This document shows, one piece after another, positions 11,757 to 62,897 of a stretch of 64,000 nucleotides of DNA. Below the pieces are notes generated by a model. That model saw nothing but the letters and a program-made list of their open reading frames with translations. It was not told the origin of the DNA and made no database searches. Where the stretch lies: positions 11,861,072 to 11,925,071 of the forward strand of contig JAJEKV010000040.1 in assembly GCA_021234155.1 (NCBI GenBank). The letters run 5' to 3'. A program made the translations under genes and the position numbers. Source of the DNA: Isoetes taiwanensis (taxonomy: Eukaryota > Streptophyta > Lycopodiopsida > Isoetales > Isoetaceae). The number at the start of each line of letters is the position of its first letter. Position 1 is the stretch's first letter.

Positions 11757-13233
<1,477 letters not shown>

Positions 13234-37737: not shown

Positions 37738-40700
37738 TTAATCGTATGTAGACACATCAATTTGCTCCTTTAGATCATCCTCAATATCATCTATCTCATC
37801 ATCGTCTAGATATAAATGAAGAGCCAAACCTCTAATTGCTTCTGAATGGCCATGTGCATGTTCTGCGACTTCTTCATCTTCAATATAATCCTCATCATGA
37901 GTGCAGAGATGAATTGGCGAACTAAATGGAGATCGAAGCGCACAATTTGCTTCCATATCAACTTCATCTCTCATTGGAAGTGTCGTTGGTGATGCTAGAA
38001 GAACATGTTCATTAGCATCATCCTCAACAGGAATAAATCCACCTTCAAGATGACCTTCTATTGATTAAGTACCAACATCCTCTATGTTTAAAGAGCTTTC
38101 TGAAATTTCTCTTTCTTCAAATCTAAAAGCATCTTCTATATCATCTAGACTTGGCTCATCAACATCATCAGCAGTATCCGCAACACCTCCACCATCATTT
38201 ACATCATCATCACTGGAGAGCTCTTCCATATTATTTTCAATTACAGAAAGATCGATCACACTCCGAGCCCTTGATTGACAATGTATGACAATCCACCACT
38301 TTGTGTCATTAGGGTTCTCATGGATAAACATTTGCGCAACCTGACTTGGAAAAACAAAAGGTTCTTTCATCTCAGCCAATACCTTTGAGGAATCTACTTC
38401 TGGAAATTCTGATGGATGACTCCTAACTGTTCTGCCACGACCTCTATATACAACTTTGAACCATCGTGCCTTCAAGACATTTACATGAAAGCTACGATAA
38501 TCCAATTCAATGATATCTGTTAGGATGCCCATGTAATCAAGGTTACTTTCCAAAAGGTTGCGGTCCCTATTGCTAGACTGACTTTTCTGTTCAAATTGTG
38601 AGCTGATTCCTGAATCAAATGTGACCCTATGTTTATCAACCGTGTTGATGCAAAAATGTTGGCCATAAGCCCACATTGAAGTGTAGAATCGCGCCTAGAA
38701 CAAAATAACGATAATTAGGAATAATATTCTACAAAAGGAATGAAACTTAGCATCAAATATTTACCTTCCTACTACAACCAAGGGCAATCTCATAATCCTC
38801 ATCTCGAATGAACTTGGCCATGATCTCTGGCTTCATCCATATGAACCAACAACCATGTGCCATCCATAACATTTGGCAAAATAGATCGTCTTGACCTTCT
38901 CTGTGGATCTTCCTTAGCACTTTCAAACAAGTCCCTCCATGGTTGTAAACTCGCAGTATTATTAATCACAAATGTGCTTACAACAAGAAGCATTTCATCA
39001 CTCAGACTTCGTTCTACTCCATTACCCTGTAATACCTCTGATGTGATCTCTTCAGGTTCTTCTTTCTCCCATAATTTAGGGCCAACAGGATGACATGAGG
39101 TAGTGACATCATTTAGGTGGAACAATGTTTCCTGTACAAGATGCCCTTCTGCCATGCATCCCTCTGGTTTTACCATTTGACGGACAAAGCCCTTGAGCAC
39201 CTTCATATAGCGCTCTAGAAAAAACATCCATCTACTAGGAGCAGGTCCAGCCAACCTTATCTCATTGGGGATATGCAATAGCAGATGCACCTGTGAGTGT
39301 AACTGTAACGATCCTAGGCCCTAAGACTCCAGCATTGGTACTGCACATAAAGCATATATCTAATAGATTGGGATATATGTTGGGATATATGCATGGCATA
39401 TATCCAATATCCACATAAGCAAATCCACATAAGCAAAACTATAAAAAGGAAAATTTTAGAAGAGGGCTTTTGTGGTACGTGGGAATTTTTGCAAGAGAGG
39501 AGCACCAAATAAAATTTGAGTTGCAGAGGAGCCGGAGGAGGCTATCTGGAGGCAAGAGCTAGAATAGACGGCATCAAATCGTTCTTCCTTTTGAGGTGGG
39601 GTTTTAGAATTCAATTGAGGCTTACATAGGCTGCTAAGAATCAAATTGTGTATGATTTTGTAAGAGTTGTGATTGAGGGGTTTTCCATCAGAGTAAGCAG
39701 GAGGTGTCTTTGGATATGAGAAGTATTAGGATATGGCTTAAAGGAGGCCTGAGTTAATCCTAGCTGGAAGACTATGGGCTGCAGCAAAGGTTTTATTCTG
39801 CAACAGAATCGTCAAAGGTGGAACTGGATCTTCTTGAGACTCTTGGAAATGACCTGGAACACATCAATTTGGCCTGCTCAAGGGCCGAAATTGGAGAAGC
39901 AGTAGTTGTTTGGCTGAAAACAGTAACTACATCATTAACAATATTTTTCATTGCTAAGAATATACATGATTACATAATATTTTCTTAATAGTTACCTGTA
40001 GATCAAAATAGCTAGTGGGAAGTTCTTTTTCAATATCGCAAAGCAGCATAACCACTTCCTCCTCCATATTTGATATCTCAGACACTTCGATTTCTTTGGA
40101 AGAGACCCACCTTGCAAATTTACCCAATCGATATATAATGCTTCTTACTTGTGGAGTCAAAAAGTCTCCTATAACACATGGCAATATATGCTGAAAAGGA
40201 AAAAAACAAAGTATAACTACATATGTTGAAATATCAAATTTTCATAAAAAATAAGGTATAGGAATTAAAGTATACCTGAAGAAACTTGTGCCAATCATGG
40301 GACTTTAATCCAATAAGACTGCCTTTTTTTAGTGAATGCTTTACGCAAAGAGGCTCCATATCCAGTTGGTGTGCGTACCTTTGATATTCTTTTGTTCACT
40401 TCAACAACTTGTTTTTTCGCTAAAACCCATGCACCTTGTTTCCATGTGAGGGATTTCTTACATTTCTTCTCGATGGGCCAATATTTCTTTTTGATTTTTT
40501 GCTCTTTCAGATCCATCCTAGCAGCCAATGTTTCCTGTTCTCCTGTTATATGCTGCCAAAGAGAATGCGCGACATTTTTGAAGATGTGCATGGGATCAAG
40601 TAAATGCACCAACTCCAAGTAGTCCAATACTCCAACCTATAGAATATAGATAACCACTTCATTCCTGGCAGAAGATTTGCATTTGAATCTCCATAACTAG

Positions 40701-43700
40701 TCAAGTAATCCACATTGGGATTCATCTCCTTCCAAGCATCTAACCAATCCTTAGGTGTCCATCTCTTTGGCTTCGGGGTCTCATCAGATCCACGTGTAGG
40801 ATGACCCTCTGTCAAGTACTTTTTATGTCCAATATATATCTGTTTTTTCAGATGTCTTGACCTATATGATGTTAAGCTAGTCCCACAAGAAGGACATCCA
40901 GATGCACCACTTGTTTGCAGACCTACAATAAAACAAAAGATTAATTCAAATAATACCTATGGTTTATTATGATTTTGCACTACATAGTACATCATACCAG
41001 AAGCTTCCGTAAAACCTGGATAATCATGAAGAGTAAAGCATAACATCCCATGGAACGTAAAGTCATGTGAAGTTTTAGAAATGTCATACATATGCACTCC
41101 CTTCCACAAAACCTCAAGTTCATCCACCAAAGGTTCTAAGTAGACGTCCATATTTTTTACTTTATATTTCCCTGTAATATCCAATTCCATACTTAATATA
41201 AGCAATAGAAATTAAGTTTTATATACACATGCATACCTAGAATAATCAAAGTCAACATGATCATCCATGATGGGATGTTATAATTTATAACTGCAACAAG
41301 CCACACAGTATGAGAGGATGACCTAGATCCCCATGGACAAAGACCATCAATCCCCAGACCAAGTCTAATGTTGCGTGGCTCCAAGGCAAACATGGGCCAC
41401 TTTTTTTTTTTTTTTTGATGAACGTGGACCTTTATTACTCAAAAGAATACAAAGAGTACATGGGGGACTCAAAACCCAGTGGAGAAGATATCCACTAGAG
41501 CAACACTACCCACCACATACATAACATAGAAAAGCAACCATCATTCAATTAAATTGGGATTATGTCTGGTCCAAAATCGCGCCGAATAGGCTTATTATAG
41601 GCCATTTTAGCTATATAACCATGTGTTGAATTTGATGAAACTTGTAAAATATGATGGAATTTAACCTAAAAATTTTATGTTTTGGCAACATAAAAACCTA
41701 AAAAATTGCATATTTTAAACACAATTATCCGCAACCGCGAAATTTGTAGAGTAAAATAACAAGTATATTTGAATAACTAACTGCAAGAAAGTCCTTATTT
41801 TCGAAATGAAAATCGCGCCTGGCGCGATTTTGTGGACATAAACATACTACATTTATGCAGATTCAACTCAAATATTTATACAAACAATAAAATTTATGTC
41901 CTACAAAATGGTCAAAACAGACGATTTTACAAACGTGAAGAGTCTTTATAATGCTCCTGATGCGATTTTATCCTGCCCAAAATACTTAAAATGTCCTACA
42001 AAATAGTTAAAAAAAACCAGCTTTTAGAGAAAAATAATAACAAAAACATCCTACAAAAGCAGTTAAAAGAACAACTTTTATGGAAAAAGTAAATACAAAA
42101 TCGCTACCGGGCGCGATTTAACAAGGACAATCACTCTCAAATGTCCTTAAAATGTCCAAAATGACAAAAAATAAGGAATAGGCTAACCTCAAATCGCGCC
42201 CAAAGCATTTTCACTTTTTTTTTTTTTTTTTTTTTTTTTTCAGTCTGGCACTCACCTCAAATCGCGCGCCGGTAGCGATTTCAACTATGGGCTCTTCACA
42301 AAACCCTGCAACATCACGAAATTGAGCAAATTTTAATCCTGCAACATCACGAAATTGAGCAAATTTCCTGCTTTGATCTTGAAATTAGCAGCTGTAACAC
42401 TTCAAAGTAGGTCGGATTTGACAGTTAGATCATGCCCAACCCCAAAGCCCCTTCAATAATTGTGATTTTGAGCATTTTTGGGCTGATTCAACATCAGAAT
42501 TTGTATTGCAGCAAGCAACTGTGAATCAAGTCAAAATTACAAGGGCTTCTCTCCAGCAATCTGGACTATTACCATCCTGCCGAGTCTACCTAGCAATAAC
42601 AGAGTAATATCTAGAAGAGATAACAGATGAGATATTGGTAGTATACCTAGCAGTATCCAGAAGAGATAACAGAGTATTGTATTGTTGCGTCTGGGCTGTG
42701 CTCCAAGTGCTTCATCCACCAGTGTTCCATCCGCCAGTGCTCCAAGCGCTCCAAGCGCTCCATCGATGTGGAAAAGCTCGATGGAAAACCCTGTGGAAAA
42801 GCTCGACGTGGAAAGCCTGTGGAAAACCTACCCGATATGGTAAAAGAGGCGTGGACCTCTTTGTTGAGAAACGAAGAAACACAAAATAAAAAACTGAAGG
42901 CGGAGCAACTAAAAGCGAAGAGGGAGTAAAAGCAAAGGGACGGGCGGGAATTTAGAGGAGGGAAAAAAATAAGGAGAGGGAGCAAAAGAATAGGAGACGA
43001 AAAAAAGGGGGGAAAACGGACGGGCGGGAATCTGAAAATTGAAAATTGAAAACGAAAACAAGAAAGGCGGATGGAGAGAAAAAACAAAAAAATGGCGGAC
43101 GGGGAATAAAAAACAAAAAAAACGCGGACGGAAAAAAAGTACCAAAATTAAGACATATTCTCAATTTTTTTGAATGATGGTTAAGCAGAGAATACAGATC
43201 ACCATGAGCACAACTGTTTGCTATGAGTAGGTGTGAATCTGAAGATATTGCTCCCAAATGACACTTTTGATGTCATCCTTCAAGGAAGAACATTTGTACG
43301 CCTTCACAATGCGACTACAGGCATCGCTAAAGCCCCATCTGCAGGGGTTCTCATCTTTCCATCCCTACTACGATGTCGCGCATGATAATCCATAAAATCT
43401 GATAGCGTTGGCGATCGAAAAATATGCCGAAGCCGAGGGATTATAGGCATATGACGTAATACCTTTCTTGCCACTTTTGTCTTTCTGCCTTCCTCATAGC
43501 GTGCTTCCTTACACTTTGGACATGATTGATCATTTGCATAGTCTTTGTGAAATAGAACACAATCATTAACACATGCATGCACGATGTTATACTCTAGTCC
43601 AAATGAACACAATAACTCCCTAGCCTCCCTCCTAGATTTTGGGAGACAATGCCCATCTGGCAATATTTTATCAAGTAAACTACAAAAAAAAAGAAATTAT

Positions 43701-44619: not shown

Positions 44620-46630
44620 TATTTCCTATTTAATTATTCAAATTTTTTTGGTCAATTCTTATTTCCTATTTAATTATTCAAATGTTTTTCTTTTTCCTTC
44701 CAATCTTGTTCTCAAATCACCTGTCTATAAGTCCATCAGTCCCACTGTGTTGTTTATAAATCATAAGCTCTGGTGTGCATCGTCGCTAGTTGGCAATTCA
44801 TTTTTTCTCAACAAAATATCTTTAACTTAACATAAAACCTTAATTGGTAGTGTGAAACACGCATAATTAATGCTAATCTAACTTAGCCCTCTAACCGCTA
44901 GTGTGAATCACCAACTAAAGTTTTAATTTAGTTTTTCAAATCTAACTGAATGGACATGATGGAAATTTAAAATTTATGTCTCGAGAAGTTAGTCCTATGG
45001 GAAACCATAATTTTCTTTTTGTTAGGTTAACCGAATAGTTAAGCTAACTGAACCTAATGGCGAGTGAGAAACGGTCCAAAGGCTATGAACTCCCCTCTCT
45101 CTCCCTCCCTCCCTCCCTCCCCCCTCTCTCTCTCTCTCTCTCTCTTTGTGCTTTTTTTTTCCATTTGATCTAATTTTTCCCAAATAGGGTAAATTATAAC
45201 GAAGGCATTATTATCTGTGCTAAACCAGAATGCCGCAGAGACTTGGCTATGACAGCAGAGAATAGAGCTCACTAGAATACCCCATCTCCTCCCCCCCTCC
45301 CATTTTTTATTTTTTAATTTCCCCTACAATCTATATTTTTCCGAATGACGCAGGAATCTCTACAAATATTTGAAAAGGATCTTGCCTATCTACACATATG
45401 TAAGTTAGTTTGCTTGATTCTCTCTATCTTTCTTACGTGTCGCCACAAAAAGAGTTGTTTCGAAAAATAAATGGTTTTTTTCTCTCTCTCTTTCCCAAAA
45501 AAAAACTAGTGGTGTAGCTATGCGGTCTGCATCTGGTCCAGAACCTTCAAGCAGAGGGAATGTCACCTGCTCTTCTCAGTGTCAAAATGTTCCATGGATC
45601 GTTATTTCCCCGCTGCTTCATTTCCTATAGAAGCATAGATCAAACACCTCCCATGCATGTTTCCAAGCGTGCTACTGGTGATCTGTCGTCAATGGAGAAT
45701 GATGCAAAGAAATGCAATGTTGGTATTGACAAATCAAGGAAATCGCCTAGTTGCACAATGGCTGATAATGGGTGGCCGTATATAACACCAAAAAAGGCCG
45801 AATATACCACATCTCGGGCTCTAAAACAGATATGATTTATAGATTGTCTAGTCTACGGAATATAATGTACGTAATACTTCATTGGAAATTTATCTCTCAT
45901 TCCTAGTTTGCATAATAAGTTAGCTTATTGCTTTTAAAAGCTTGTTGGGTATCTAGGACTTGTTTTGCAATGCAAAAAAAGAGGGGATGGGGATCCAGAA
46001 TGCATCTAAATAATAAATTCAAGCACAGACACAGAGAGCGCTTTACAGTATCTCAGCAATCAGAGCCATCCACTGAGACAAAGGAACTTTTGTTTAAATC
46101 TGGATTGCTCGTGACAGTGCTGCTGGGCAATAATTAGCTTAGAAATGGACCATCCCATATCTATTGTTTTTTCACCTAAATCCACCTCCATAGGAGCAAC
46201 TGTGTCAAGCCCAATTTGCAGTGGTATGAAGATGTTTAAAACATAAGTATTCGTGTAATGAGGTCCTTGCTTGCTATAGTGACACAAAGTAAGTATTCGT
46301 GCAATGGGGTCCGCTTTTTAGGTAATATTTTTATGGTTTTGTGTATTTAATTCCTTTTTTTTTTTTTTGAGGGTAGGAGTGTAACCATCATTCAATTAAA
46401 TTGGGATTATGTCTTAATTTTGGGATAAATTTTATATTGCACTTTTTTAGTAACTTTGTTAAATTCACTTTTTTAGTAACTTTGTTGCCCTTAGACTAGA
46501 ATAGACGTTAACATATAATCACACACGGGAATATAAATTCACACCTTAACTTCAAATTACAAAATCATATATCATGGAACTCAAGTAGTACACAACTTTT
46601 ATTAACTGTAGAAAAGATACATAGTAACTG
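44620..46630. other. Region between CACTA 2 and the DUF7869 gene
   Basis: AT-rich. Holds a CT microsatellite (45095-45145) and an unrecognised plus ORF at 45560-45835 (91 aa) without family match. A ~28-bp phrase at 46385 (ccatcattcaattaaattgggattatgtct) also occurs at ~41537, so a small dispersed element is possible. The missing 5' CACTA terminus should lie here, but I could not see it. Confidence 0.4.
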
Positions 46631-46634
46631 TTTT

Positions 46635-49525
46635 TCATTTTTCCACTAGCATCCCCAAGGATATGAGAACCTTATTCCTTACATCCTGAGGTATTGTAAC
46701 TCTCATTTGTTTTACTAGGAATAGTTTTGGAGTCCACGAGTACAATACGGTTTCAATGTCTAGCCAAAGATCGGGATCACTTGGATTTCTCCTCCACCTC
46801 TTTGTCCAACAATCTGAATATCTTTCTTTATCGGTGACATTACTCAACCGATGTAATTGGACACCACCATTCCCGCCGCACCTTATTGAAGTTAACATCA
46901 CTTTCTTCTTTGCAAATATCCGAGATAGTGTATCCCAACCCACCTTTGGATAGGTCTCTAGATCTCTTTGGTTTTACTACTACAAATTGGTGGCACTCCA
47001 CGTCAGTAGAAGGTTCATAACAATCCATGCCTAAATATTTTGGCCTATCCTTCTTAGGACCAACATAGTGTTTATCAGATTGAGGAGGAGCATATGCCTT
47101 CACAATGCTACTAATGGTACCATCATCTTCATTCAAGACCGACTAATGTTTTCCACTTACTTTTAGGGAACCACCCTTCTAGCAGCTCTTCTGAGGATGT
47201 GTCTACCTCATCCAACAAGTTGATCACCTTCTTCCAATAATCTATCAATGCACGATTAGTGTCATCTGAATTAGTTTGCCAATGCTTGATGTAGTCATTG
47301 ATGCCATCCTTAGTCAAGCCCAATTGCTTGACTTCTTGATTGGTTTTAGAGCTTTTGGTTAACCAGAGGTATCATAGGCTTGCCATTTGCATCCCGCGCC
47401 AAATTTCTGCCCCACCTCTCCACATCTCCTCTGAAGGTCTCATTTTCCATTGCATGATTGGAATCCCTTCTCTCACCCAAAAAGTGAATTGAAGAGGTCT
47501 AGAATGACCTTCCATGTCGAGAGCATAACCATCCACAAAACTCTTCCAATCAGGCACTTCTTCTATGATAGATCCTATAGAAGATGGATTTGTACATCCA
47601 TGAAATATTTCCAATAGCCTTGGGAAAGTTGGTAATCTGTCTTTGTCTCAATACATGACTATATTTTCCAAACAATGCATCCACATCCTCATGAGTATGT
47701 CCGGGCATTAGGAACCCCAAATTCACTCTTTCAAAAATACCCACAATTTGTTAAGTAGGATAGGAAAGAAAACATCCACTGTTCTTATTTTGACCAGCAC
47801 AATTATCTAGTTGCAAGAGGAGCTTTTAGGGGCAGATCTCGAGGTTTAGCACGAGATGTTGAAGCTCCAACATGTTCATTAGGTCCATTCCTCCTAAATC
47901 TTGCCTTGCTAAACTTTTCAATACTATTAGGGGTTCCATCCAACAATGCACTATGTAGTGCATGGCTAGTCAGAGGATCCTGAGGGTGACCATTGTAACC
48001 CTTCTCATAGTTTCTTAAACACCTCATGATACTCCCAATGTGAAAATCTGGACCATCACTCCACAACTCTAAAACTGAAATGGCCATAATAGGTCTGAGA
48101 CTGCCCATGCAATATTGCCCCAGTCATTGAAATCTGCAAAGGGTATGATCTTCCACATGACTTAGGAATGTACTTGAATTGTGGAAGACAAGTCTTCTGT
48201 TGGTCCATTTTATCATGTATAATACATAGATAGTTATTAGGTTCCATTGCAGATAAGGTCCTCCACATCCAATAAGTTGATCTACATGATAGTTGATCCG
48301 TCATATGGTCCTTCATATGTTCCCTTATCTTTGCCCTTAGACTTGGTTGCACGGTCTTATCTAGTGTCTCCTTCAGCTTAGCACATAAATTGCACTTGGC
48401 AAAGTTGTTTGAAGTTGCTATGGTCACATGCTTGAAATGCTTATTCCATAGCCTACTAAAACTGGGCTGGGATATAGAGGCCACTCCAAGTTCCCGAAGC
48501 AATGCATTTATTTCCTCTAATATGCTCTTTTGGGTACAATGGGATGGCAATCTCTTTTCAACAATAACTCTACCCCTGTTCATCCTTCTTACTCTTATGT
48601 GGCATGTTTTTTGCATTGAAATCCACATATCTTTTAAATATTTCCTTTGCGGCTATAGTTCTTGAGGTAGGCCTTACCGGGCCGGTGTTCCCATGCAATG
48701 CAATTTTACTACCATTTCATGTGTCTCTTTTTGCCGGTTGTGCCAAGAAGAGGTTGGAATTCCATGTATAGCCATCCATGCTTTTGAACATATCCACTTT
48801 CCATTCAATGGGAATCTTTTCTTCTTTGATCTTTCATCCCGAATTGCATAGCCAAATATGGTGTACATGAAATTCCTCCTGCTATCACACTTATGTTCCC
48901 GATATGTAGCTCTTTGCTGCCACCATCTCCTCTATTGTGAACATTCTAATCTGGGAGGCCCAACAACATTCACTTCCTCTAACCTTCATCAAGGCTTGAG
49001 GAGAACAATCATAATCGACTTGCATCTTTTGGTGGGATAATGTTTGAAAGTTGGAAGTGGCCTCTTGCTACACTGTGTGAACATTATTGACAATGGTTCT
49101 ACATCTATAGGAAACGTGTAGTTCCCCTCCAGTTGAATGTTGTCCCTAGGCCATGCAACAATAGTTGGAACCTCTAGTTGCTTCACACAAGCAAGGCATT
49201 CTTGTTTGCCTGAACCCTTTTCCTTCCAATTGTCATATAATTTTGAGATTGCCACACCTAACCTGTCCTCCCCTAATCTTTCATCATTCACTGCATTGAT
49301 AGGATCTGCTAGAACAATAATCCCTTCTCCTACTGCCTCTCTGTTGCATGCATGCAGGATCTTGACCTTTTTGTTTTTCCAATCGACCCGAGTATAAAGT
49401 ACAATTTCCTTTCCTTTGGCATCATCCTTTTCATTTGAGGTCTTTTCCTTTCCTTTGCCATCATCTTTGTCATCCTTGCCTTGATCACCATCATTGGGGG
49501 CCTTGGGGGATTTAGCATTTTGCAT
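46635..49525 (-). CDS. DUF7869-type transposon protein (frames interrupted)
   Basis: A long minus-strand coding region read in several blocks. First a Lys/Asp-rich N-terminus (DKDDGKGKEKTSNEKDD, 49525-48989). Then a middle region with ILEEINALLRELGVASISQP, a CNLCAKLKETL zinc-like motif and HDKMDQQKT (~48200). Then LDNCAGQNKN (~47785-47815) and PGHTHEDVDALFGKYS (~47662-47708). A C-terminal region follows (VECHQFVVVKPKRSRDL, WLDIETVLYSWTP) and stops at 46635. LDN...NKN and GHTHEDVD are hallmarks of DUF7869 proteins, found widely in eukaryotic repeats. The D (HDK), D (LDN) and E/D (HEDVD) would fit an RNase H-fold transposase triad; that is inference. There are few but clear frame breaks, so the gene is probably decayed. 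Confidence 0.7.
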
Positions 49526-49559
49526 GCCATTGACCTAAAATGCATAAAAACCTATAGTA

Positions 49560-51130
49560 AGTTAGCATATCCAAATAACATCTCCCTAACATGTTCTTAA
49601 ATGAAAGTTAACCTTAATAATAACCTTAATAACCTATAATAACTTAATCTATAATAGTAATAAGTTAACCTATAATATATTAACTTATAATAACCTTAAA
49701 TGTTGTAACCTTAGAAACAACTTTAAAGCTTATTATAGGTTAGCACTTTTAAGGTTAGAAGTTTTAAGGTTAAAACTTCTAACCTTCAATAAATATAACC
49801 TTAAAACTTCTAAAACTTAAAACTTCTAAATTCAAATTCATAAACTTTTAAACTTATAACCTTATTTATGAACTTAAAAATATTAACCTTAACTAATAAC
49901 CTTAACTTATAAACCTTAAAACTATTAACTTTAACTTATTAACCTTAACTTATAACATTATAACTTATCACCTTAAAACTATTAACCTTAACTTATAACC
50001 TTAAAACTATTAACCTTAAATCTTATAACTTATAACCCTTGCAATAAATTTTCGCGGCAGTTATTATGGCGCGGTACGAATTTTTTAAAGCAGTTATTAT
50101 TTCCAGTTTACAATCCCTTTCGAACTTTTCCAGCTTTTCTGTCTCTCTTTCGAACTTCTCTTCTGGTGCGCTTTCGATCTTCTCTTTCGATCTTCTCTTC
50201 TGCTGCGCTTTCGAACTGCGCTTTCGAACTGTGCTTTTCGAACTGCGCTTTCGACCTATCTGCTTTCGAGCTTTTTGGCTATCTGCTTTCGAGCTTTTCT
50301 GGCTATCTATCTGCTTCAATCTAGGCGCTTCAATCTAGGCGCTTCAATCTGCTTCAATCTGCTTCAATCCCGAATTCTATCTGCTTCTCGGCTTCTATCT
50401 GTATTGTGTTCTTATTTTCGGCTTCTATCTGCTTTAAACTCGGCTTCTATATGCTTTAAACTCGGCTTTTCGAGCTTTTCGGCTTCTACAATCATCTGCT
50501 TTAGGGTTTTCGGCTCAAAGGTGTTTTCGGCTCAAAGGTTTGTAGGCTTTTTTGGCTTTTTTGGTTTTTCGGCTCTCTACAATCTCTCTGACTTTGAATA
50601 ACTTTGGTTTTTTGTGTTAAAGCTTCTCGGCTTCTCGGCTTCTCGGTTTCTTAAGGCTCAAATCATCTCCTATTGGCTTCTCGAATCAAATCAACTTTGG
50701 TTTTCGATCTTTTGGTTTCGGCTCGAAGGCAAAGGCTCAATTCTCGGGTACAGAACACAAATAGGTTAGTATTTCCTGTTATTTACATAAAGTAGTTATT
50801 TTACATAAAGCATGTTATTTACTTTTACATGCATCAGTCCTAAACTGCCCTACCACCTTCATATATAGATCCTGCTCTATGATCTTGTTATGTGATCTTG
50901 CCTATATGATCTGCTCTTATTCCATTTCACTAGCTCTTCCTCTATCTGTTCTAATTAATGATCTAAAATAATGAAGTAAATAATGATCTATGATCTATCT
51001 GCTCTATGATCTTGCTCTATGATCTATGATCTATGATCTATCTGCTCTATGATCTATGATCTATCTGCTGTATGATCTATCTGCTCTATGATCTTGCTTA
51101 TATGATTCTGATGTTTCTGCTCTTATTTCT
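49560..51130. repeat. Low-complexity block: three degenerate tandem arrays
   Basis: 49560-50035: units like 'ttataaccttaaaactattaacc'. 50100-50760: 'cttttcggcttctcgg' and 'ctttcgaactgcg' motifs. 50870-51120: 'ctatgatctatctg' units. It separates the divergent DUF7869 gene and the 51.5-kb locus. Open frames here are repeat artefacts. Confidence 0.75.
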
Positions 51131-51291
51131 TCCTCTATCTGCTCTAAATAATGAACTAAAACAATGAACTAAATATTGAACTAAACAAGGAGTATTATTA
51201 TTATATATCTGTTCTAACTGGCTTCATATTTTGAATTCTGCATTCTGCATTCTGCATTATGCATTCTGTTAGAATAATATGTAGAATGGGA

Positions 51292-51468
51292 GAAATCGCG
51301 CTTGGCGCATTTCTATTTTTGGGTTACGTTTTTCCACTAGGTTAATCAAAGCGCGCCAGGCGCGTTATTAGTTTGGCTTTTCTATTCCATACGGCTCTAT
51401 ACAAATCGCGCCAGGCGCGTGTGAAATAGATCTGTGAAAAAAACAAAGCAAACGCGCCTGGCGCGTTT
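51292..51468. repeat. GC palindrome cluster upstream of ORF 51551
   Basis: Four palindromes in 177 bp: 51292-51310 (cgcgcttggcgca), 51350-51366, 51402-51420 and 51451-51468. All have core GCGCCWGGCGC or a one-base variant, spaced ~50 bp apart in AT-rich DNA just before the first ORF. Confidence 0.9.
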
Positions 51469-51550
51469 TGAATTATGTATGTTCAGAATCGTTTTATGGG
51501 GAGAGTAATATATCATTTGCTAATTACTTAATTTCTCTCGTTCTAGTGCC

Positions 51551-51970
51551 ATGGATTTTCCTTATGCATGGACACTGGCTGATCGTAGTTCCAATACACT
51601 GGCTGGTTCTAGTTCAAATACACTTCCCCTGGACGACCATCAACTCTGGACCCTGTACAAGATATTACTTGATTGTGCAGTTCAAAACGTTCAAAGAGAG
51701 TTGGAGAATCCATTAGACAGTCTGTATCAGGGGCCATGGGAACACTTCCATCGCATCTCTGGACATATGCGGCTCCTCATGCTCTTAGTAAGGCTCATGC
51801 CAACAAATAAGTACGAGGATTTGATTTATAGTATCAAGGATCGATACAACACTCTGGTTTGGAGACTCGACATTCGCAGGGAAGATGAGGATGCTGTCAT
51901 ATCAGGGTGGTTCAGGTGGGACTTTTTGCGGTATTGGGCCGATGAAGTGGGCCTGTGTGACATATTGTAG
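51551..51970 (+). CDS. Unrecognised 139-aa ORF, first ORF of the palindrome locus
   Basis: From ATG (MDFPYAWTLADRSSN) to TAG, ending WADEVGLCDIL. It is helix-rich with many Trp, Leu and Arg, and has no signal peptide or membrane segment. It has no family match that I know. GC palindromes lie directly before it (51292-51468) and after its stop (51981, 52048). It may be a small gene of its own or the first exon of the larger locus to the right. Confidence 0.45.
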   Translation: MDFPYAWTLADRSSNTLAGSSSNTLPLDDHQLWTLYKILLDCAVQNVQRELENPLDSLYQGPWEHFHRISGHMRLLMLLVRLMPTNKYEDLIYSIKDRYNTLVWRLDIRREDEDAVISGWFRWDFLRYWADEVGLCDIL

Positions 51971-52091
51971 AGATAGAAAGAATTCGCGCCTGGCGCATTT
52001 TTGCAGAAGAAGAAATGTACATATACTTTTTTGGAATGTGAATACAAACTCGGCGCTGGCGCAATTTGTCACTATACTTTTACATCATTAG

Positions 52092-53082
52092 TTTATTATG
52101 TTTTTTTTATATGCAATGTCGAAAACATTGAATCCTGTGATGCCCTCCAGCCAGTATGACCAACCCCAAGAAACTACATATTTTCATTAATGTGTAGTTT
52201 CATGGGGTTGATAAGGAGCTAAAAGAACATCAAAGAATTCAAAATTCACAACATCACTTTGAGATGTTATGATATATTCATTTTTTTTTTGAATATCCAA
52301 ATATACATACCTTTTTCGGGACGTTCTTTTGGCCATGCTACAAATGTGCCCACGCTTTCACCAAGCTGTATACGCCCAGGGATGTCTTCTTGGAAGAGCC
52401 TCATCTTCATAATTGCGGTTTATAATAGAAATCTTCTGTAAACTGTTTCCAAGAGGAACACCATGACACATAGAACTTGGATTCGGATCTTGATTTTACA
52501 CAATCCTACTCGGCGCTTCAAGTTTCTTTGTTAAAAGATAGCATTCTTCTCATTAAGCGATAAAGAACCAGAATGCATTGTAAAAAATAGAGGACGAAAA
52601 ATAGAGAACAAGAGAATGCATTCAGAATGGAATCACACTCACCATAGTTCAGCAGACATCGAATGGGAATTGAAGGCGGCTCGATCGAATGGATTGAAGG
52701 CGGCTCGATCGATCGAATGGGATTGAACGAATCTTGATCGATCGAGCGGATCTTGGCGCTCGATAGTCGATTGTTCTTGGCGCTCGATAGTAGGAATGAT
52801 CTTGGGCGCCTCGATAGTACGTGGCCGATTAGGTGGTAGTAGATTGCCACATATGCGTTTCTTGAAATTAATAATTAATTGTTATCTTGAAATTGCACTA
52901 AAAAGAAAAACACAATTTAAATTTGTAAATGAGCGGGACGGGCGGTTAATTAAGGCGGTATAAATTTAAAAGGACGCGAATTTGAATTCACGATTTGTAA
53001 ATCGGCGGCCTAGATTATGAACGATACATATAAGTTCAAACCAAAACCCTGGGGATCTCATACTATCCGCACTTGCAGTTCT
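52092..53082. other. Spacer in the palindrome locus
   Basis: AT-rich. The section 52670-52815 has repeated 'ggcgctcgata' and 'gatcgatcga' phrases. It has no supported gene. An RGG-type exon starts at its right end. Confidence 0.5.
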
Positions 53083-56000
53083 ATGGCGTCTAGAGGATCT
53101 GGCCGCGGCCGAGGCGCTGGTAGAGGTGGGCGACAGCCCAAAGCACAAATCCCAAGCCTGGAGGCTGCTGAACAAGCAGAAAGCACAAATCCAACAAGCG
53201 TCTCAGGTAATTGATCTGTTTTTCTTTTGTAATTGATTTCTGTGTCCCTTTTTTTGTTAGGTTTTTAGGATGTTTTTAGGATGTATTTTCTGTGTATGCG
53301 TGTCTCTGTGTATTTTCTACCTTTTATATTGTTTCTGTGTCATTTCTACTGCTTTTACTACCTTGTTTTGTGTGTTTTTTGTTATAATCTTGCAGACTTG
53401 TTTGTTTATACTTTTGTTCTGTATTCTCCAGTTCTTTTGACAACTCTTTTTTGTAGCCTAGTATGTCTCTTATAAAAGAGAAGTGTCTGTAGGGCCCCTC
53501 TTAAAAACGCGCTCGGCGCGATTTATAATGTAGAGATGATTGTTTTTGGTTGTCTCTGCTACTTTTCCTGTGTACAATTTATGTTTTTTAAAGTAAGGCG
53601 TCTATCAAAACGCGCTTGGCGCGATTTCATTACTCACATGATTGTAACTTTCAGGATCTTCTAAAATTGTGAAAAGAAAAGCAAAGCTGCTTGAGGTCCG
53701 AGGACATCTGCCACAAGTAAAAACCAAGAACGGATGAAGATGTATCAGTTGCAGATTTGGCACACGTTGTGACCATTGACGATACGACCGGAATAATGAA
53801 GGCTCAGGTAGAGCCTCCATGTCCAGAAGAAGATCTACCAGAGGGCTCTGAATGGTATGTGGAGATCTTCAAGACTAGCGGAAAGACAGATCTGATTTTC
53901 ATGTCTAGAGTTAAGGAAACAGATCAAATGAAGAAACAAGGTATTCTCGATCACATGCGAAGAACGGGGACGATTCTTTACCGTTCCGTATTACTTGAAG
54001 CGGGTCGAAAAAAAAAAAAAAGTATTGAAGAAGTTAAATTCTTTGCAGTGCGGTTCCTTTAAAGAGGCGCCCTAAGAATGGATGAGGCCGCAGATAACCT
54101 CTTCAAATTTATTGGTCGGTGGTGATCTATTGACACCAAAACAATATGTGAAGGTCTCTCACCGTGAGGAGAGCAATCAAGTACAAGGCCGTCGGCTAGT
54201 GCGTACCTACAAGCTTTAAAAAGAGAAGGAAGATGCAAGTTCTAGAGCCAGGAAAAAACACCGGGCGTTCTAGGCATTACGGATATGACTAGTGATGATG
54301 ACAAGGCGAGACAGTTAGAGGCCATGAGCAAACTCAAGAAATATGCTGACAAGTATCCACTGGGCCTTAACTTCACACATCCTATCCATGTCGACAGGCT
54401 TTTCAGGTCCACGAAGGCTATGTTTGTCAGCAGAAGATACGACAAGCAGCACGCAATGGAAATAGTCAACAACATGATAGAAAACCCAGGACAGGTGCCA
54501 ATGCCGGCAGATGTGGTGCCTTTTGATATGAAGACGAAGAAGGTGTTGATATGGAATAAACTTGAAGATTTAATTGGCAACCTCGATATTCACTTCATGA
54601 TAATAGATGGCCAAATTGATTGGAGGCGTTGAAGGTTTTGATCAGATCAAGCACAAAAAACTGGAAATCAGTTATTCTATAGACTGTATTCAGTCAGAAA
54701 TTGCCGGTTCCTCAGTGGCTCAACAACAGCAGCAGAATTAGCCGAAATCAGCGCGCTACTGAATGACATGGGAAAGACATTCCTATACAAAAGGTATTTT
54801 ATTTTCCTACACATAGCGTTCCAAATCGGCGCCCGGGCAGCGTTTTTCGCTAATCGCGTATTTACAAAATGCGCTGGGCGATTTCTTCATATCGCATACA
54901 TGAAGAGATGTCAGCGCCCGGCGGCGTTTTTAAAATCGTGATTAGCGAAACGCGGGCGCTGGCTTTTATGTTGTTATTTGTGTGACGGATTTACAAGAAA
55001 CGCGCCTGGCGCGAATTCTTCATCGTGAAGAAATCGCGCCAGGCGCGTTTCTTGTAAATCCGTGGTTAGCAGTAGAGATTTTTTTACCCTGTCTATTTTT
55101 TTTTTATCTAACGGCCCATATTTTGCAGTCCGTATGTGGAGGCGATTCGCGACGCATTTCAGAACCAATGGATCGAATATGGAAAACCAATGCCGAGCCG
55201 GACAAAGGGCAATCTAAGAGTGCGAATTCAAATTACTAGAAAGGACACCGTGCCAAACCATAATGAGGACAAGACCAAGGGCACTAGATCAAAGAAGAAA
55301 AAGGGGATGCACAAGCCTGGCAACGAGAAGAGCAAAAGCGGTGCCAAAGGATGCCCTGTAAGATTGTTTTTCTTCTGACCAGGTATGGGAAAAGTGGAAC
55401 GAATTTTGGGACGCCTATTCGGAAAAGAAGTTGCCAGATTCGTATGGCAGGTTTCCTCCGCAAGATACGTCTATTTTTGATATACATATCACAGAAATGA
55501 GAAAGGCACAAGGATTGGATGATGCAGAATTAATCTCTGTTCTAGATAGTTGCATCAGAAAGGAAGTTATCTACAAGAAAACGTCTGCAGCAAAGCACTT
55601 GACATCTTTCGAAGATGCATGCGAATCGATAAAAAATATGAAAGTCCTGAAAAAAGCTGTTGGCGAAGAACTGCAAAGGCTCTCAGGAGACATGATGTTA
55701 TCAGAGATAGGCTTAATGCAAAAGTACAACGTATCTAATGATGACATTAAGAAATATGTATTTTGGTCAAAAGATTTTGTGAAGCAGCAAAAGGCGAAGA
55801 ATGTGGCAACTCTTAAGGGGATTCACACGAAAGTTCGTCGACCTAAAAAGAAAAGTTGCTTTGGTGAAGAAGGCGGTGATGAGAGGACTCGCCTTTTTCT
55901 ATAAGGTGTCCACTGGTTATAAGTGTGTTGTTGTGCGGAGGTGGGTGAAGGGCCAACCGACATCACTCTATTTGTTCTTGATAGCCGCGGGTAACGAGAT

Positions 56001-56947
56001 GGACAGGATGATTACAGCACCTTCTTCAACACATGCAGTGGTTTGACGACTGAGATGCATTATACTATCGTGACAGTTTGCCACTCCGACATGTCCTACG
56101 CATATGCACTAGCTGCTGCAAATGATGTCGAATGCATTAAAGTGATGAGGCAAGCAGTAATGATAGATGAGAACAAAGATAGTGAGTTTAGTACCGAAAG
56201 TAAGATCTCACATGTGCTAGTCCTTATGATAGCCATTATGGATGATAAAGAATATGAAAGACTCAAGGGGAAACCAGAAGGTGAGAAGATTGCTTGGCAG
56301 TGCTATCGGCTAGATGAACCCCTATTGAAAAATATTTTTTATGTCGAATCCAATGCTGAAGACAAAGGGAAGGAGACTGCAGATGTGGATGTGGACTTTG
56401 AAGAGGACGAAGAGGAAGAGGAAGAAAAGCTGGGTCGACCACGTCCTTAATTCACCAATCAAGTATGAGACTCTCTTGTGGCATATAAGGGAGAAATTTG
56501 AATAAGTCACGGGTTTTCTTTGGCCCTTCGAAGTTTTCTCGATTGAAGCCTTACGCCCTTTAGAGTCTACGTGTTGGGAGTTTCATGTTGGAGGTTATGT
56601 CGGGCGGGAAGCTCATGAAGCTAGCTAGGAAATGCCAAAGTGTGGTCTCTGATGGTCAAGCCAAGGACTTCCTTGATATTTTTTTCGAGAAAGTGCTAGA
56701 GGTGGCACCTAGGGGTCCGCTAGGTAGTGCAAAAACTAAAGCTTCCAGCTCTAAGTCCGAATTACCTCCAGATCTGGCTGCAGAGCGGGAAGAAATGAGA
56801 AAGCATCTAGAGGGCATAAAGAAGAATATCGACAAGCAGCAGCTTAACTATGCGGCCGAGAGTGTGCCTATCATTCCAATCACATTGGAAAATCCGATTG
56901 AAGTGGATGTAGGTAGCATAAGCGAAAGAAGACAAAATCCTAGATGA
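53083..56947 (+). CDS. Unrecognised multi-exon locus, coding blocks A-F (frames interrupted)
   Basis: Block A (53083-53206) starts MASRGSGRGRGAGRGG and ends at a GTAATT donor. Block B opens after an AG at 53655 and continues to ~54060 (includes PPCPEEDLPEGSEWYVEIFK). Block C, 54285-54632, reads KYADKYPLGLNFTHPIHVDR, RRYDKQHAMEIVNNMIENPG and HFMIIDGQ. Block D, 55126-55360, follows an AG and is Lys-rich. Block E, 55395-55904, is helical (KWNEFWDAYSEKK, WSKDFVKQQKAK). Block F, 56043-56450, includes YTIVTVCHSDMSYAYALAAA and a Glu/Asp tail; 56585-56947 (EVMSGGKLMKLARKC) may follow. The frame is broken at several points. Block C resembles ParB-like N-terminal folds (RR...I...P...IIDGQ). The whole is not a family I recognise. 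Confidence 0.45.
53507..53629. repeat. Two GC palindromes in the intron between blocks A and B
   Basis: 53507-53527 (acgcgctcggcgcgat) and 53609-53629 (acgcgcttggcgcgat), both inside the GT-AG interval 53207-53654. Confidence 0.85.
54802..55125. repeat. Intron packed with GC palindromes
   Basis: Donor AAAAG|GTATTT and acceptor TTTTGCAG|TCC bound an interval with at least six palindrome copies. Those at 54825-54960 are degenerate (tcggcgcccgggcagcg and relatives). The pair at 54995-55050 sits within a 79-nt inverted repeat (54985-55063; 38-nt arms, 3-nt loop, one or two mismatches). Confidence 0.85.
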
Positions 56948-57105
56948 TCAAAGTGGATTCGAAAGCTCGAGTCGGGTTAGCATAAAGAGTAATGAAGTAT
57001 CAACCATAGTTCAAACACTAAGTGATGTGGGTGACACTTACGGCGTAATCAAGAGGCAGTAGAGTAAGCTCATCATTGCGGATGTTGAGCGGGGAACTAG
57101 AAAGG

Positions 57106-57267
57106 TATGTTAATCAAACAGAAATGAAAATCGCGCCAGGTGCGATTTCAATTCTTCAAACAGAATTGAAAATCGCGCCAGGCGCGATTTCAATTCTTCA
57201 ATCGCGCCCGGTAGCGATTTCAATTTTTCTTTTCCTTGTCTCACAAGTGTGTGCTTTATTATTACAG
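57106..57267. repeat. Candidate intron with three GC palindromes
   Basis: The interval runs from GAAAG|GTATGT to TTATTACAG|ACC. It holds 'aaatcgcgccaggygcgattt' twice and a 'cgcgcccggtagcgat' variant, each followed by 'caattctt'. The 'gaaatgaaaatcgcgcc' / 'gaattgaaaatcgcgcc' units look like a local tandem copy. Confidence 0.85.
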
Positions 57268-58400
57268 ACCTAATCCGGTTTCCTCCAAAATTCGGTGTTC
57301 GATTTGAATGGAGTGCTCGCAAAAGCGTTACCTAAAGCACAATTCCCTTTATCATGGTATGCCGCGAGAAACCATTTGAGACATATCTGAAATGGGTATA
57401 TCGGCCAGTATATCGAAGGAGATGTTAGACCAAGCTTTTACTTTATTTCGTTGTGCAATTTGGTCGTCGATGGAGAATAGAAATATGAGGAAGTTTTGAG
57501 AGTAGTTCCCGAAGTTACATAGAGATTGGGCATCTGTTTGGGATCGAGCAAATGTAAGTCATTCAATAACCCGAAGGATCCTACAGTAAAAAAATATTTG
57601 TGAAATGCTTGGCGACATGATGGATGACTTGGGCGTTGAGGAGAAGGAAGACATCATTATAGTTGATGATGGCGCCTTGAAGTGTTGCTTCAATCAGTCC
57701 ACGATCACTAAATCCACCATCCTATCATCCACGAAGATTTTGACAAAGATGACTTCACGCCCGTTTTGTCGATTATCTTGCACGAAAAAGCTTCACAGGA
57801 AAAGCGGTCGAAGAGATACAAACACTATACACGCAACTTAATCGGACGGTTAAATTGGCGGGGACCTAGAGAAGATCGTTCTAGAAAGGGAACTTTTTTG
57901 ATATATATATATGTATCTGAGGAAATACACTTTCCAAAAAGTTTTGAATATGAAATATACTTTACACCAACCTCTTTCGAATATATATTGTGTTCTTATA
58001 TCAGCATTATTGGTTTACGTATGCGTATTGTTCTTTTATATTATGTGTATGGTTTGCTATACTTGCAATAATTTGTATGTATATACGAGTCAATAATTTA
58101 GGTGTCTATAAAACGCATTATGCATGAAATTGGCAAACCATCGACTTGGCTTCCATATACGCTTGTTATTATGGCACATTCTATTACGCGGATGAACCAT
58201 GCGGACCTCTGCAGTGCCTTGAGCTAGAAATAGAACCGGGACTGGCTTGATGTCGTTGCTATGAATCCGCCCGCTTCTATCCGATCCCTTTGATGTTGTA
58301 ATCCATCTTATATGGAATCCAGAGCATGGTTTGTTCATGATCGACAGGATCTCAGCACCGCCTGCAGCGCCTGTCGACGATGATTCGGATTAGTTTTTAA
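57268..58400 (+). pseudogene. Decayed 3' part of the palindrome locus
   Basis: Short coding-like stretches remain, such as IRFPPKFGVRFEWSARKS after the 57267 acceptor, MLGDMMDDLGVEEKEDIIIV (57605) and DDFTPVLSIILHEKASQEK in another frame (57740-57790). They fit a decayed continuation of the upstream blocks, but no stop codon or end can be assigned. Confidence 0.3.
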
Positions 58401-58439
58401 AGTTTATGTTCCACTATAATACGTTATTTATGCGAATAA

Positions 58440-58752
58440 AATCGCGCCACGCGCGATTTGACCCTTGAAAATCTCTGTTTTGTAGCAACTTGCTTGCTGT
58501 TATTTATTCGTAAAACACTACAATTTCAATGTTTAGATTTCGTTGTCGTCGGTGATTGTACGAATTAATAAGCAATTTCCTACTTTTTATATTGCCAACA
58601 TTCTTTCATAATATGGGTCATTTGCACCGAATATTTGGATGCCTTTGCATTTCAACATAAAATGCATCTTCCTAGCCCGAAAATGAACTCAATGCAAAAG
58701 TGTGGTTAATTCAATATAATGGTCAATAAAAGGCTTATATGGCGCGATTTTG
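58440..58752. repeat. Rightmost GC palindromes
   Basis: 58440-58462 (aaatcgcgccacgcgcgattt) and a half-site at 58739-58752. No further copy is seen to the right edge. Confidence 0.8.
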
Positions 58753-58969
58753 GAATAGACATAATCCCTGGTTGTGTGTTTTTTTTTGTTATTAATAATA
58801 ATAATATAGATACAGAGAGTCCCCACAATGGGACAAATAGGAAGCATTAGCGCTAGTATCCGGGATCTCTATGCATCAATGATGTGTGTGCTTAGGGAAG
58901 TCCTATTTCCACAACAACATAATAGAATCCCATGAAGGACCCTTAACATACTGGTTCTCGTGTTTATAG

Positions 58970-59741: not shown

Positions 59742-62700
59742 TGAGCAGGCCGAACATCTCCCCCTGATGTCTGGCAAGGTACCGCGCCTTTGTCTCGCCG
59801 GATGGGCGTGATGCGTGGTGGTAACCTGCAAGCGGTACACGGATCGGGATGTGGCGGAAGCCGGCGCTTGCGTTCTTTACACTCGCATCAAACCACGGTT
59901 CTGCGAAAATGTTTGCCGTCCCTGGCGGCGTGTGGGGGGAGGGGGTCCGACAAAGCACCTGTCCCCTGCATCCCGTAATAGCGAAGTCAACTGATCTGTC
60001 TGCTGCTCTAGTGTGGGGGTCCGCAGAATTGCTAGCAGGGCGTCCATGAGCATCTCGGCGTAGTCCTCTGCCTGCTCATAATCTAGTCGCAACTGAGGAT
60101 GGCGAGGGGTTGGCATAGTGGGGGTTCTGGCGGCTTGCCAAACCATGTCCAAATAAAGTGGGAGGTGATCTGAGTCGACCTCCTCATCTCGACTGTCGGT
60201 GCCCACCCGGAAATGACTGATGAGATGCATATCTTGCGCAGCTACGAGCACATAGTCCACCACACTAGACCCTCCCCCCTGATTGTCCTGTCTGCAGGTG
60301 CACTTGCGAGAAGCGGGCCACTGTGACAGGCCATTGCAAATTATCAAGTCAAAAATACCACATAGCAGGAGCAACTGGCTGCCAAAGCGAGTGACCTGGC
60401 TGTCATCCGAGCCTCGTGGCCAGGTTGCGTCTGCGGGACGTAGCTGCAAGACATGGTCAGCGAGGGGGTCAAGTCTCATGGGCTGCTCCACTCCTGTCCG
60501 TGCATTGAAATCCCCAAGAAGGACGACCCTACCCAACTACTTGTGTTGCTGTATGTCATCATATAGATCGACATAAGGGTCCATCCTATCCGCATCGGAG
60601 TGGCTGCGATAGAAGGTGCTCTCTGCGTGAGGGAAATAACAGGCGGCCAGAAAAAGAGAGTTGCCACTGGTATTATGCACACGAACCCACAAGTACCGGT
60701 TGTGTCTGTCTGTCTTTTGGAGGGTAACCGAATGTGCCAAGGTTGTCCGGTAGTAGCAAGCAACCCCACCATGACCCCTCTGTCCTGTACATGTATTGAA
60801 GACCGAGAAATGTTGGTATATAACCCGGCAGATCAGGTAGCCTATGCCCAGCATGCTCCCATGTCTCCATGAGAAAGATGAGATCCATATCGGTTGCCAC
60901 GGAGTTGAGACTGCTCCCCTTCTGCCAAGGGAAGCCTCGACAATTCCATGAGACCACCCGGAGGCACAATTCCTATTTGTCGCCAGTGGTAGGCGCGTAT
61001 GCGAAGTCAGTGCGGAGGGAGGACCGGACGCAGAGGCCGAAGGGAGAAGTAGATGGAGCGGAGGCAAAGCATGTGGCCGAGAGGGCGTGGGTCGGAGGGA
61101 GTAGGAGTAGGAGCAGGAGAAGGGGGGGGTAGGAGGGGCTGCGGGGTGGTCCGGCAGCGAGCAGTGGCGGAAAATGTGCATCCTGCCCCGAACCAATCCT
61201 GCGGCACCCCCTTGGTGGCGGATGCCTCTGACCACCGACAAGCTCCGCCTGCGCATGCCTCTGTTGTGCGGGTGTGAGGTCCCGGTCCCGCGTCTGGGGG
61301 CGTCCCCTTCGGCATCTTGCCTGGCGCAATATGGCATCAGCACTGCGCATCCAAGCGGCGGCGAATATGACAATACGGTCCGCGACGGTGCTGAGCCCCA
61401 TGCATGGCTGCTTTCGGGGAAATGTGAACTGCCCGGGGAATGTCATCCGTCGAGAATGTGTGTTCGGATGTTGTGGGGCGAACTCTCCCCTCCTCTTCTG
61501 GCATGCCTCGGACTACCAGATTGTGGCCTCTCCGTCTGCGCTCTTGGAGTTCTGCGACCTGCGGGTCAAAGGTGGGCGAGGGCCGGGGCCTGCGCTGGGG
61601 TGGTGGCGGTGGTGGCTGGGATGGCGTGGGGTGGCTTGAGTGCGGGGCAGCAGTGCGTGGTCCTGGCTGTCGGCATGCGGTGCGTGTGCATCTTGGGGGT
61701 TATGGAGGGTGCCGGTCGACCAGCGTCCTCGGCCTTGTGAAGTCGGGAGCACAACTCTTGCAGGGCCCGCTGCTTCTTGGCCATCTCCTATTATGCGCGA
61801 CTTGCTGCGGTGACTATGAACCTCGGTAGGGAGACCCTGGCCCTGTCTATGGATGGCTGCCTGCAACCTCTGGAGCTCCTGGCTCTGAGTAGCGAGGGCG
61901 TGCTCGAGCTCCAGCACACGGGCGTCCATAGCCGGGCTTGCTGCTCCGATGGTACTCTGAAGAACCCGAAGCTATATGCATGCGCAAAGGCGGCTGTGCT
62001 CCCCGTGCCATGGTGGTGGCTTCCTCAACCTCGGTGATCATTTGAGACCGCGTGACCATCGTCCTGATGCATTGCCGCTCCCTCTCTGTGTCATGGTGTC
62101 CATAGTGATGAACCTGAGAGTCGAGACGGGCCCGCATGTCGGCGAGCTCTGCTGGCCCATTCTTGCGTTCGAAGTGTGCGAGGCCATCTTCTCGTCTTTG
62201 TGTGTGGGTCTCGGGCACTGTGATGCGGTTCTTTCGACCCCCAGTTGCCTTCTGAGCACATGGGGTGCCGAGGACTCCATCTCCACTGTCATGCCAGCCA
62301 GGCGGGCACTGTTAGCCTCAATACGGACACTGTTAGCCTCCACCGCCGCTTTGACGTGGCTCCAATTCTCTGCCGAGGCAGGAGTTCCTGTGTGGTCTGA
62401 GCAATCAATCCCTTCCAGCCGGGCTGGCCGCGCTGAGGGGGCCTTAGCCTTAGCCCGAGCCTCCTTCTTCATGGAGGATGACTCTCCCCTGTCCATGATG
62501 GCCGATTGGGACCTTTTGCGTGGCGGCCCCTCGCTTTGGTTTTCCCAGGCTGGCCCATCTTCTATGGCCATGACTTCCAAAGTTTGAGGGGTCTCTGGCT
62601 GCGAAAAGGGTGCTCAGAATACAATTTGGGGACTCAAAATCGCAATCAGAGCATCTTTTGGGGGTTTGGGGGTTTTGGGGGTTCCAAAGTTTGAGGGGTC

Positions 62701-62897
62701 TCGGCTGCGAAAAGGGTGTTCAGAATCCAATTTGGGGACTCAAAATCGCGGTCAGAGCACCTTTTGGGGGTTTGGGGGTTTTGGGGGTTCCAAAGTTTGA
62801 GGGGTCTCTGGTTGTGAAAAGAGTGCTTTCGAGAATCCAATTTGGGGACTCAAAATCGTGGTCGAGCACCTTTTGGGGGTTTGGGGGTTTTTGGGCT
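59742..62897 (-). mobile_element. LINE 2: 5' part only (ORF1, endonuclease, 5' UTR)
   Basis: Collinear with LINE 1 from its 5' UTR through the end of the endonuclease (LLGDFNART, SSVVDYVLVAAQD, DSDHLPLYLDMVWQ at 59950-60540; CYYRTTLAHSVTL and RMDPYVDLYDDI at 60540-60760). The RT and 3' end are absent: homology stops at 59742, which is probably the edge of the segmental duplication. ORF1 begins near 62571 (MAIEDGPAWENQ). Frames are again broken by small indels. Confidence 0.88.
62575..62895 (-). repeat. LINE 2 5' UTR monomers, three tandem units
   Basis: Units begin at 62575, 62682 and 62788 (107, 106 and ~107 bp) and match those at 34440-34756 one for one. Confidence 0.92.

Follow-up and report, generated by a model that had tools for sequence, protein, structure and literature searches.

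We analysed a 64,000-nucleotide stretch of the Isoetes taiwanensis genome (contig JAJEKV010000040.1, positions 11,861,072 to 11,925,071 of the forward strand; hereafter the window), in which a preliminary description had reported a multi-exon locus at 51292-58752 with short GC-rich palindromes in its non-coding parts. This locus is the right half, containing the second gene (gene 2), of a two-gene DNA transposon that has many copies in the plant genome. We lean towards the interpretation that the palindromes are subfamily-specific sites of a dimeric protein, most likely encoded by gene 2, through which the element would recognise itself and remain transcribable.

Structure and classification of the transposon

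The transposon copy in the window is about 12.4 kb long (46383-58768), as judged from its left end and from homology to three other copies, named A (loci L045 and L046), B (L047 and L048) and C (L050 and L049, reversed). The locus as first described is part of this element, which reaches left to 46383, beyond the extent originally assigned. The left terminal inverted repeat, AACCATCATTCAATTAAATTGGGATTATGTC (46383-46413, forward strand), recurs in exactly inverted form at the right end of copies A, B and C. Comparison with the same copies showed that the right terminal repeat of the window copy is truncated, with a remnant at 58758-58768 (reverse strand) from which the outer 20 bp are gone; the left ends of copies B and C are not intact. 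The terminal inverted repeats deduced from the copy comparison are 31 bp long and perfect. In the 1.66-Gb assembly, over which all genome counts were made, the 23-bp core of the terminal repeat was found 943 times in forward and 967 times in reverse orientation (control, 0). AUX/IAA-domain matches number 49 in this assembly and were seen in 0 of 14 control genomes, in line with a land-plant origin. A perfect 4-bp target duplication flanked all ten sampled end pairs spaced 12.1-12.5 kb apart (ATGA, GATT, AGTT, CAAA, TATA, CCTC, AACT, CATT, GATT and ATAA). Both defining features being present, the element is a DNA transposon with terminal inverted repeats.

The target duplications separate the element from Mutator-like elements, in which they are 9-11 bp long (4 bp in ten of ten cases here), and from piggyBac, which duplicates TTAA (0 of 10 among the varied duplications here). 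Sola elements, in the passages of PMC10741241, PMC9033089 and PMC3627910 that describe them, have 4-bp target duplications, terminal repeats and a DDD-type transposase, and are listed for moss and Capsicum while not being common in flowering plants; a passage of PMC10741241 gives sizes of mostly 2-9 kb, with some over 15 kb, and terminal repeats of 11-1124 bp. The 4-bp duplications, the large size (12.1-12.5 kb) and the 31-bp terminal repeats of the present element agree with these descriptions and fit a "Sola-like" element, the comparison, including the tie of the transposase to Sola, being with descriptions rather than with a Sola reference sequence. The element differs in having a second gene with an NIF/FCP1-like domain and palindrome arrays, neither of which is mentioned for Sola in those passages of the three papers; a literature search for palindromes in Sola elements gave nothing relevant among the matches listed.

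The transposase gene occupies the left half (46638-49534, reverse strand) and is in pieces in the window copy, where it was recognised from open pieces and a Pfam match to DUF7869 at 47375-47647 (E = 1.3e-4, under the cut-off). In open frames of two other copies the same domain was matched with E values of 4.6e-40 and 1.8e-40. The transposase frames contain the motifs HDKMD, LQLDNCAGQNKN and GHTHEDVDALF, which look like a DDE/DDD catalytic core. Of 9902 DUF7869 candidates in the genome, 150 were scored and all 150 matched, compared with 0 of 14 control genomes, and the ratio of nonsynonymous to synonymous substitution rates (dN/dS) among recent copies was 0.28-0.51. A search of the Protein Data Bank (PDB) sequences with one transposase piece gave no match, and no paper mentioning DUF7869 turned up in a literature search. 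The transposase gene and gene 2 are divergently transcribed, and between them lies a segment rich in tandem repeats (49600-51290), in which repeat and site scans found no palindromes.

Palindromes are confined to the non-coding parts of the gene-2 half

The exact core GCGCCWGGCGC occurs eight times in the window, seven of them in 51292-58752, and in none of 100 shuffles. We scored sites by their match to AAATCGCGCCNGGCGCGATTT; at a score of at least 14/20 there were 19 sites in the whole window, namely 13 in this element, five in a further family member (41820-42271) and one at 61322, whereas the reversed window gave one. Copies A, B and C have 12, 14 and 18 sites, respectively, and all sites, including those of the window element, are in the right half; none was found in the transposase half of the four copies. 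Since visibly degenerate palindromes were also seen between 54820 and 54950 and near 57210, the original count of about 18 was a fair one. The arrangement is likewise as first reported: four palindromes lie upstream of a small open reading frame (ORF) (51293-51469, centres 51303, 51358, 51413 and 51459), two downstream of it (51981-52067, centres 51991 and 52057), two in each of three introns and one downstream of gene 2 (58439-58459, centre 58449). Tandem palindromes were spaced by 32, 34 or 42 bp.

The confinement to non-coding sequence was examined in 42 sequences (the window, copies A, B and C, and 38 shorter loci, among which L011, L012 and L023 duplicate portions of C, A and B) with sites scored at least 16/20. 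All 224 mapped sites were non-coding, in line with the preliminary description, with none among 80,335 coding bases and none among the 24,474 bases to the left of 51292; 33 further sites were unmapped. The exon-2 frame of locus L083 holds one weak core match, with one mismatch and arms that do not match. In the genome, GCGCCWGGCGC was found 2601 times (control, 73), and 41 of the first 50 listed sites were within 14 kb inward of an exact terminal repeat, where about 1.6% would be expected; nine were not. An equal density of palindromes throughout the genome, irrespective of this gene family, was looked for as well, and the result did not refute their association with it.

A variant core, GTAGC/GCTAC, was present in 10 of 56 arm-bounded sites, at window positions 42109, 42271 and about 57210, near 572 and 924 in L046, and in L026, L027, L030, L031, L036 and L040. 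Several large copies have it in intron 3, possibly through common descent, and the gene-less element described below has it at two sites. Variant cores and variable palindromes may also stem from base-calling that errs systematically at palindromes, which are possibly methylated, or from genuine instability; the site counts may be low.

Gene 2 is under purifying selection and encodes an NIF/FCP1-like domain

Gene 2 (forward strand; exon coordinates are approximate) consists of exon 1 (53083-53206), whose start codon at 53083 and donor site are aligned in four copies, exon 2 (53655-54795), exon 3 (55130-57104) and exon 4 (57270-58394); the last three are broken in the window copy. Site scans, with copy alignment for the first two introns, placed palindrome centres at 53514 and 53617 in intron 1 (53207-53654), at 55007 and 55041 together with several degenerate palindromes in intron 2 (54796-55129), and at 57138 and 57180 together with a degenerate one near 57210 in intron 3 (57105-57269). 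The three GT-AG intervals noted earlier proved to have borders mostly common to the four copies, acceptor 1 being changed in A and acceptor 3 in B. The exon-3 frame is open elsewhere over more than 600 codons (up to 708 from stop to stop), and 150 of 150 scored candidates, from 4163 in the genome, matched the exon-3 protein. The dN/dS values were 0.06-0.10 for exon 2 (three comparisons with unsaturated dS) and 0.06-0.09 for exon 3 between sub-lineages at a dS of about 2, showing that gene 2 is under purifying selection.

A Pfam match to NIF/FCP1 (PF03031) was found in the exon-4 homologue of L083 (6126-6833; E = 9.4e-16, 58.3 bits against a cut-off of 21.8), and this exon matched the window at 57617-57739 in the nucleotide alignment. 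Exon 4 also gave weak matches to phosphatases of the RNA polymerase II carboxy-terminal domain (CTD) among the PDB sequences (E = 0.021 and 0.34). The NIF/FCP1 catalytic motif is DxDx(T/V), and the corresponding site in L083 and L082 reads DLNGV, in which the first Asp is kept and the second is Asn, making phosphatase activity of the domain uncertain. Homologues of exon 2 have a DGQHR-like motif near the end, corresponding to a sub-threshold Pfam match to DndB (17.4 bits against a cut-off of 29.1 in the first homologue), and TIGR03187 was matched in one of 16 homologues (E = 0.082); we regard this DGQHR/DndB-like motif as only a lead. PDB sequence searches with exons 2 and 3 gave nothing useful. 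The earlier statement that the coding blocks match no known family thus holds for exon 3 and the small ORF, and does not hold for the locus as a whole, with its DUF7869 transposase and NIF/FCP1 exon 4.

The small ORF (51551-51970, forward strand; 139 amino acid residues) has weak evidence as a gene: of the 22 sequences in the alignment, where one copy is represented twice, 15 keep the frame intact, and dN/dS is 0.88. The 7.9-kb stretches taken from copies D, E and F (see below) contained nothing that matched this ORF, and we set it aside as a candidate binder of the palindromes on account of this result and its weak coding signal.

Palindrome sequence changes with the gene-2 subfamily

More distant copies, D, E and F (L081-L083) and G and H (L084 and L085), allowed us to follow the site sequence against gene-2 subfamilies (not transposase subfamilies). 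Exon 3 of D, E and F matched the window protein at 57-59%, and the NIF exons of G and H matched that of L083 at 62%. All five copies align with the window through exons only, and intron DNA is unaligned between the subfamilies. Even so, an array of palindromes follows the exon-2 donor, and thus occupies intron 2, in F, G and H, which also have sites just before the NIF exon; the sites of D and E stand before the NIF exon. The numbers of core sites were 4, 2, 12, 11 and 12 in D to H, respectively. The core CGCCWGGCG is kept across subfamilies while the arms differ (CGCGCCWGGCGCG, CGCGCSTGGCGTG and CACGCCWGGCGTG). At half-site position -5, G accounted for 87% of 61 sites in subfamily 1, G for 53% and A for 39% of 18 sites in subfamily 2, and A for 83% of 23 sites in subfamily 3. 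The palindrome sequence therefore changes with the gene-2 subfamily.

Genome counts agreed with this. The subfamily-3 sequence CACGCCWGGCGTG was found 1771 times (control, 1), most commonly at a spacing of 32 bp, and the subfamily-2 sequence AATTCGCGCSTGGCGTGTATT 148 times (control, 0). When 100 listed places of AATTCGCGCSTGGCGTGTATT were compared with the listed NIF exons (the listed matches less 16), 56 were within 8 kb upstream of such an exon and one was downstream; 52 of the 56 were 2.05-2.71 kb from it, as far away as intron 2 is. For the remaining 43 places the list contained no nearby NIF exon. In subfamily 1 the agreement between half-sites supported a symmetrical site (0 of 500 shuffles reached the observed value).

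A gene-less relative with the same palindromes

The second family member in the window (41536-43182) is 1647 bp long, has terminal repeats and the target duplication AAGC on both sides, and contains no recognised gene. It resembles the large copies over only about 70 bases, at the gene-2 end, and 36 of 40 scored candidates (from 862, its own copy included) match it over the full length. Within about 740 bp of one end it carries five palindromes, of which one (41820, 21 bp) is perfect and the other four are degenerate. In a comparison with L086 and L087, 28 of 74 columns were variable in three degenerate palindromes (window 42098-42282), compared with 18 of 608 outside them and 0 of 23 in the perfect palindrome (three copies compared). 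Such members would have to be served in trans, in agreement with palindromes that are binding sites; the palindromes may alternatively have been inherited from a parent.

What the palindromes may do

DNA binding, the identity of the binder and an anti-silencing or activating function are what we infer here; recognition by an element-encoded protein is favoured because the sites are confined to non-coding sequence, because they occupy the same introns after intron turnover, and because they change with the gene-2 subfamily. In the mechanism we propose, the palindromes would be bound by a dimeric protein with sequence specificity, for which the product of gene 2 is the likeliest candidate. Being incompatible with coding sequence, they would be retained in introns and flanks and would multiply in place through tandem duplication. 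With these labels the protein would recognise members of its own subfamily, both in cis and in trans and including gene-less ones, and would keep the labelled copies transcribable; the NIF/FCP1-type domain suggests action on RNA polymerase II phosphorylation. Of the two explanations offered in the preliminary description, binding by a protein of the locus thus stays the best reading, with the binding itself predicted, and a mobile palindrome tolerated in introns is disfavoured, because of the association with terminal repeats (the 41 of 50 sites above) and because altered palindromes stand at the same intron positions in related subfamilies.

Several results weigh against self-recognition by the gene-2 protein. 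Copies D and E lack intron-2 sites, so that only F among the three subfamily-2 copies has an intron-2 array, and of 50 listed subfamily-3 sites 24 were inward of an exact terminal repeat. Half-site agreement in subfamilies 2 and 3 was no better than in shuffled sequences (411 and 492 of 500 reached the observed value, respectively), and CpG was kept at 413 of 432 positions in palindromes and 284 of 305 outside, which is not clearly better. As for the protein, dN/dS of exon 3 among recent copies was 0.26-0.60, no part of gene 2 was shown to contain a DNA-binding domain, exon 3 had no match over the cut-off, and the DndB match of exon 2 stayed below threshold (9 of 16 homologues at E up to 1, best 5.7e-4). 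Structure predictions were unusable, with predicted local distance difference test (pLDDT) scores of 38 for exon 2 (A3) and 32 for exon 3 (A2).

In CACTA elements, subterminal repeats serve the transposase at the ends, and the palindromes could similarly be transposase sites for cutting and joining the ends, which we consider quite improbable. In its favour, one palindrome lies about 340 bp inside the right end, and those of the gene-less member are near one end. Of the 13 in the window copy, however, 12 are 1.6-7.5 kb away from the right end, and in four copies the transposase half yielded none, so the left end has none. It is also quite unlikely, in our view, that the sites belong to a host DNA-binding protein which the element exploits or which silences it. 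The palindrome is a simple dimer site and gene 2 has no proven DNA-binding domain, both of which would suit a host factor, but one factor is not easily reconciled with three altered versions of the palindrome in corresponding introns of related elements.

We give little credence to a neutral origin, in which a short repeat spread by tandem duplication or micro-insertion and survived only outside coding sequence. Such an origin would account for the tandem spacings and for the few sites in D and E, but not readily for the occupation of the same introns after synonymous saturation and loss of intron alignment, for a core kept while the arms change, or for the lack of sites in the repeat-rich non-coding segment left of 51292. 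Hairpins in the element RNA, acting in splicing, export or small-RNA production, are very improbable; palindromes of this kind can all fold and they lie in introns and flanks, but they are also found upstream of the first ORF and in the gene-less member.

Comparison with known systems

VANDALs are Mutator-type transposons. The Arabidopsis VANDAL/VANC system, in the relevant passages of PMC5735166 and PMC10398659, resembles the present one in being a multi-gene DNA transposon with short motifs in non-coding parts, including introns, that grow as tandem repeats and differ by family. A family-specific motif concentrated in the non-coding parts of its own family was found here too. VANC carries DUF1985/DUF287 according to a passage of PMC5735166, whereas gene 2 ends in an NIF/FCP1-like domain; Pfam scans of the gene-2 pieces and homologues contained no DUF1985/DUF287, so gene 2 is not a VANC by domain content. 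The VANC21 motif YAGTATTAY, as written, is not palindromic. Our best reading is that the palindrome system would work like VANC in an unrelated transposon, the binding being predicted here.

Maize Spm is a CACTA element in which the TnpA sites are subterminal, not intronic, in contrast to the intronic palindromes described here. TnpA is described in part of PMC10398659 as an element-encoded activator of its own element, correlating with demethylation, and the gene-2 protein would likewise act on its own element. A literature search for transposon-encoded CTD phosphatases gave nothing relevant among the matches listed. ParB recognises palindromic sites (parS), and the palindromes and the sub-threshold DGQHR-like match in exon 2 are reminiscent of ParB-parS and DndB; they differ in that no helix-turn-helix or CTPase domain was shown in gene 2, and homology is unproven. 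A fuller scenario, which we hold to be rather unlikely, is that a plant transposon unrelated to VANDAL independently evolved subfamily-specific self-recognition, in which a fusion of a DGQHR (ParB/DndB-like) part and an FCP1-type CTD phosphatase would bind parS-like intron palindromes and maintain the activity of RNA polymerase II at its own copies and gene-less relatives, thereby escaping silencing.

Sequence-specific escape from silencing encoded by transposons rests on few examples, VANC, Spm TnpA and MURA being those named in the relevant part of PMC10398659. If our interpretation is correct, a further such system would exist in another transposon superfamily, its jointly varying protein subfamilies and palindromes within a single genome would open the evolution of a self-label to direct tests, and the FCP1-like domain, if part of the system, would point to a route through RNA polymerase II.

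Other observations

Across exons 2-3 (53716-57200) the window copy shows 71-75% similarity to copies A-C, the values being mostly 86-92% over long stretches further left and 82-86% at the right end (for C, 74% at 57200-57619). This gives the family a mosaic appearance, as though lineages had swapped gene 2. Copy A (L046, after 4666) directly adjoins the terminal repeat of another element, head to tail. Rfam gave 0 matches in the window at gathering scores. Elsewhere in the window, a glutathione S-transferase N-terminal domain was matched at 12309-12797 (reverse strand), and DUF4216 (under the cut-off) and DUF4218, which occur in CACTA elements, at 38065-39290 (reverse strand). A 105-106-bp unit is repeated about three times at 34440-34756 and again at 62575-62895, 28 kb apart, suggesting a second large repeated element.

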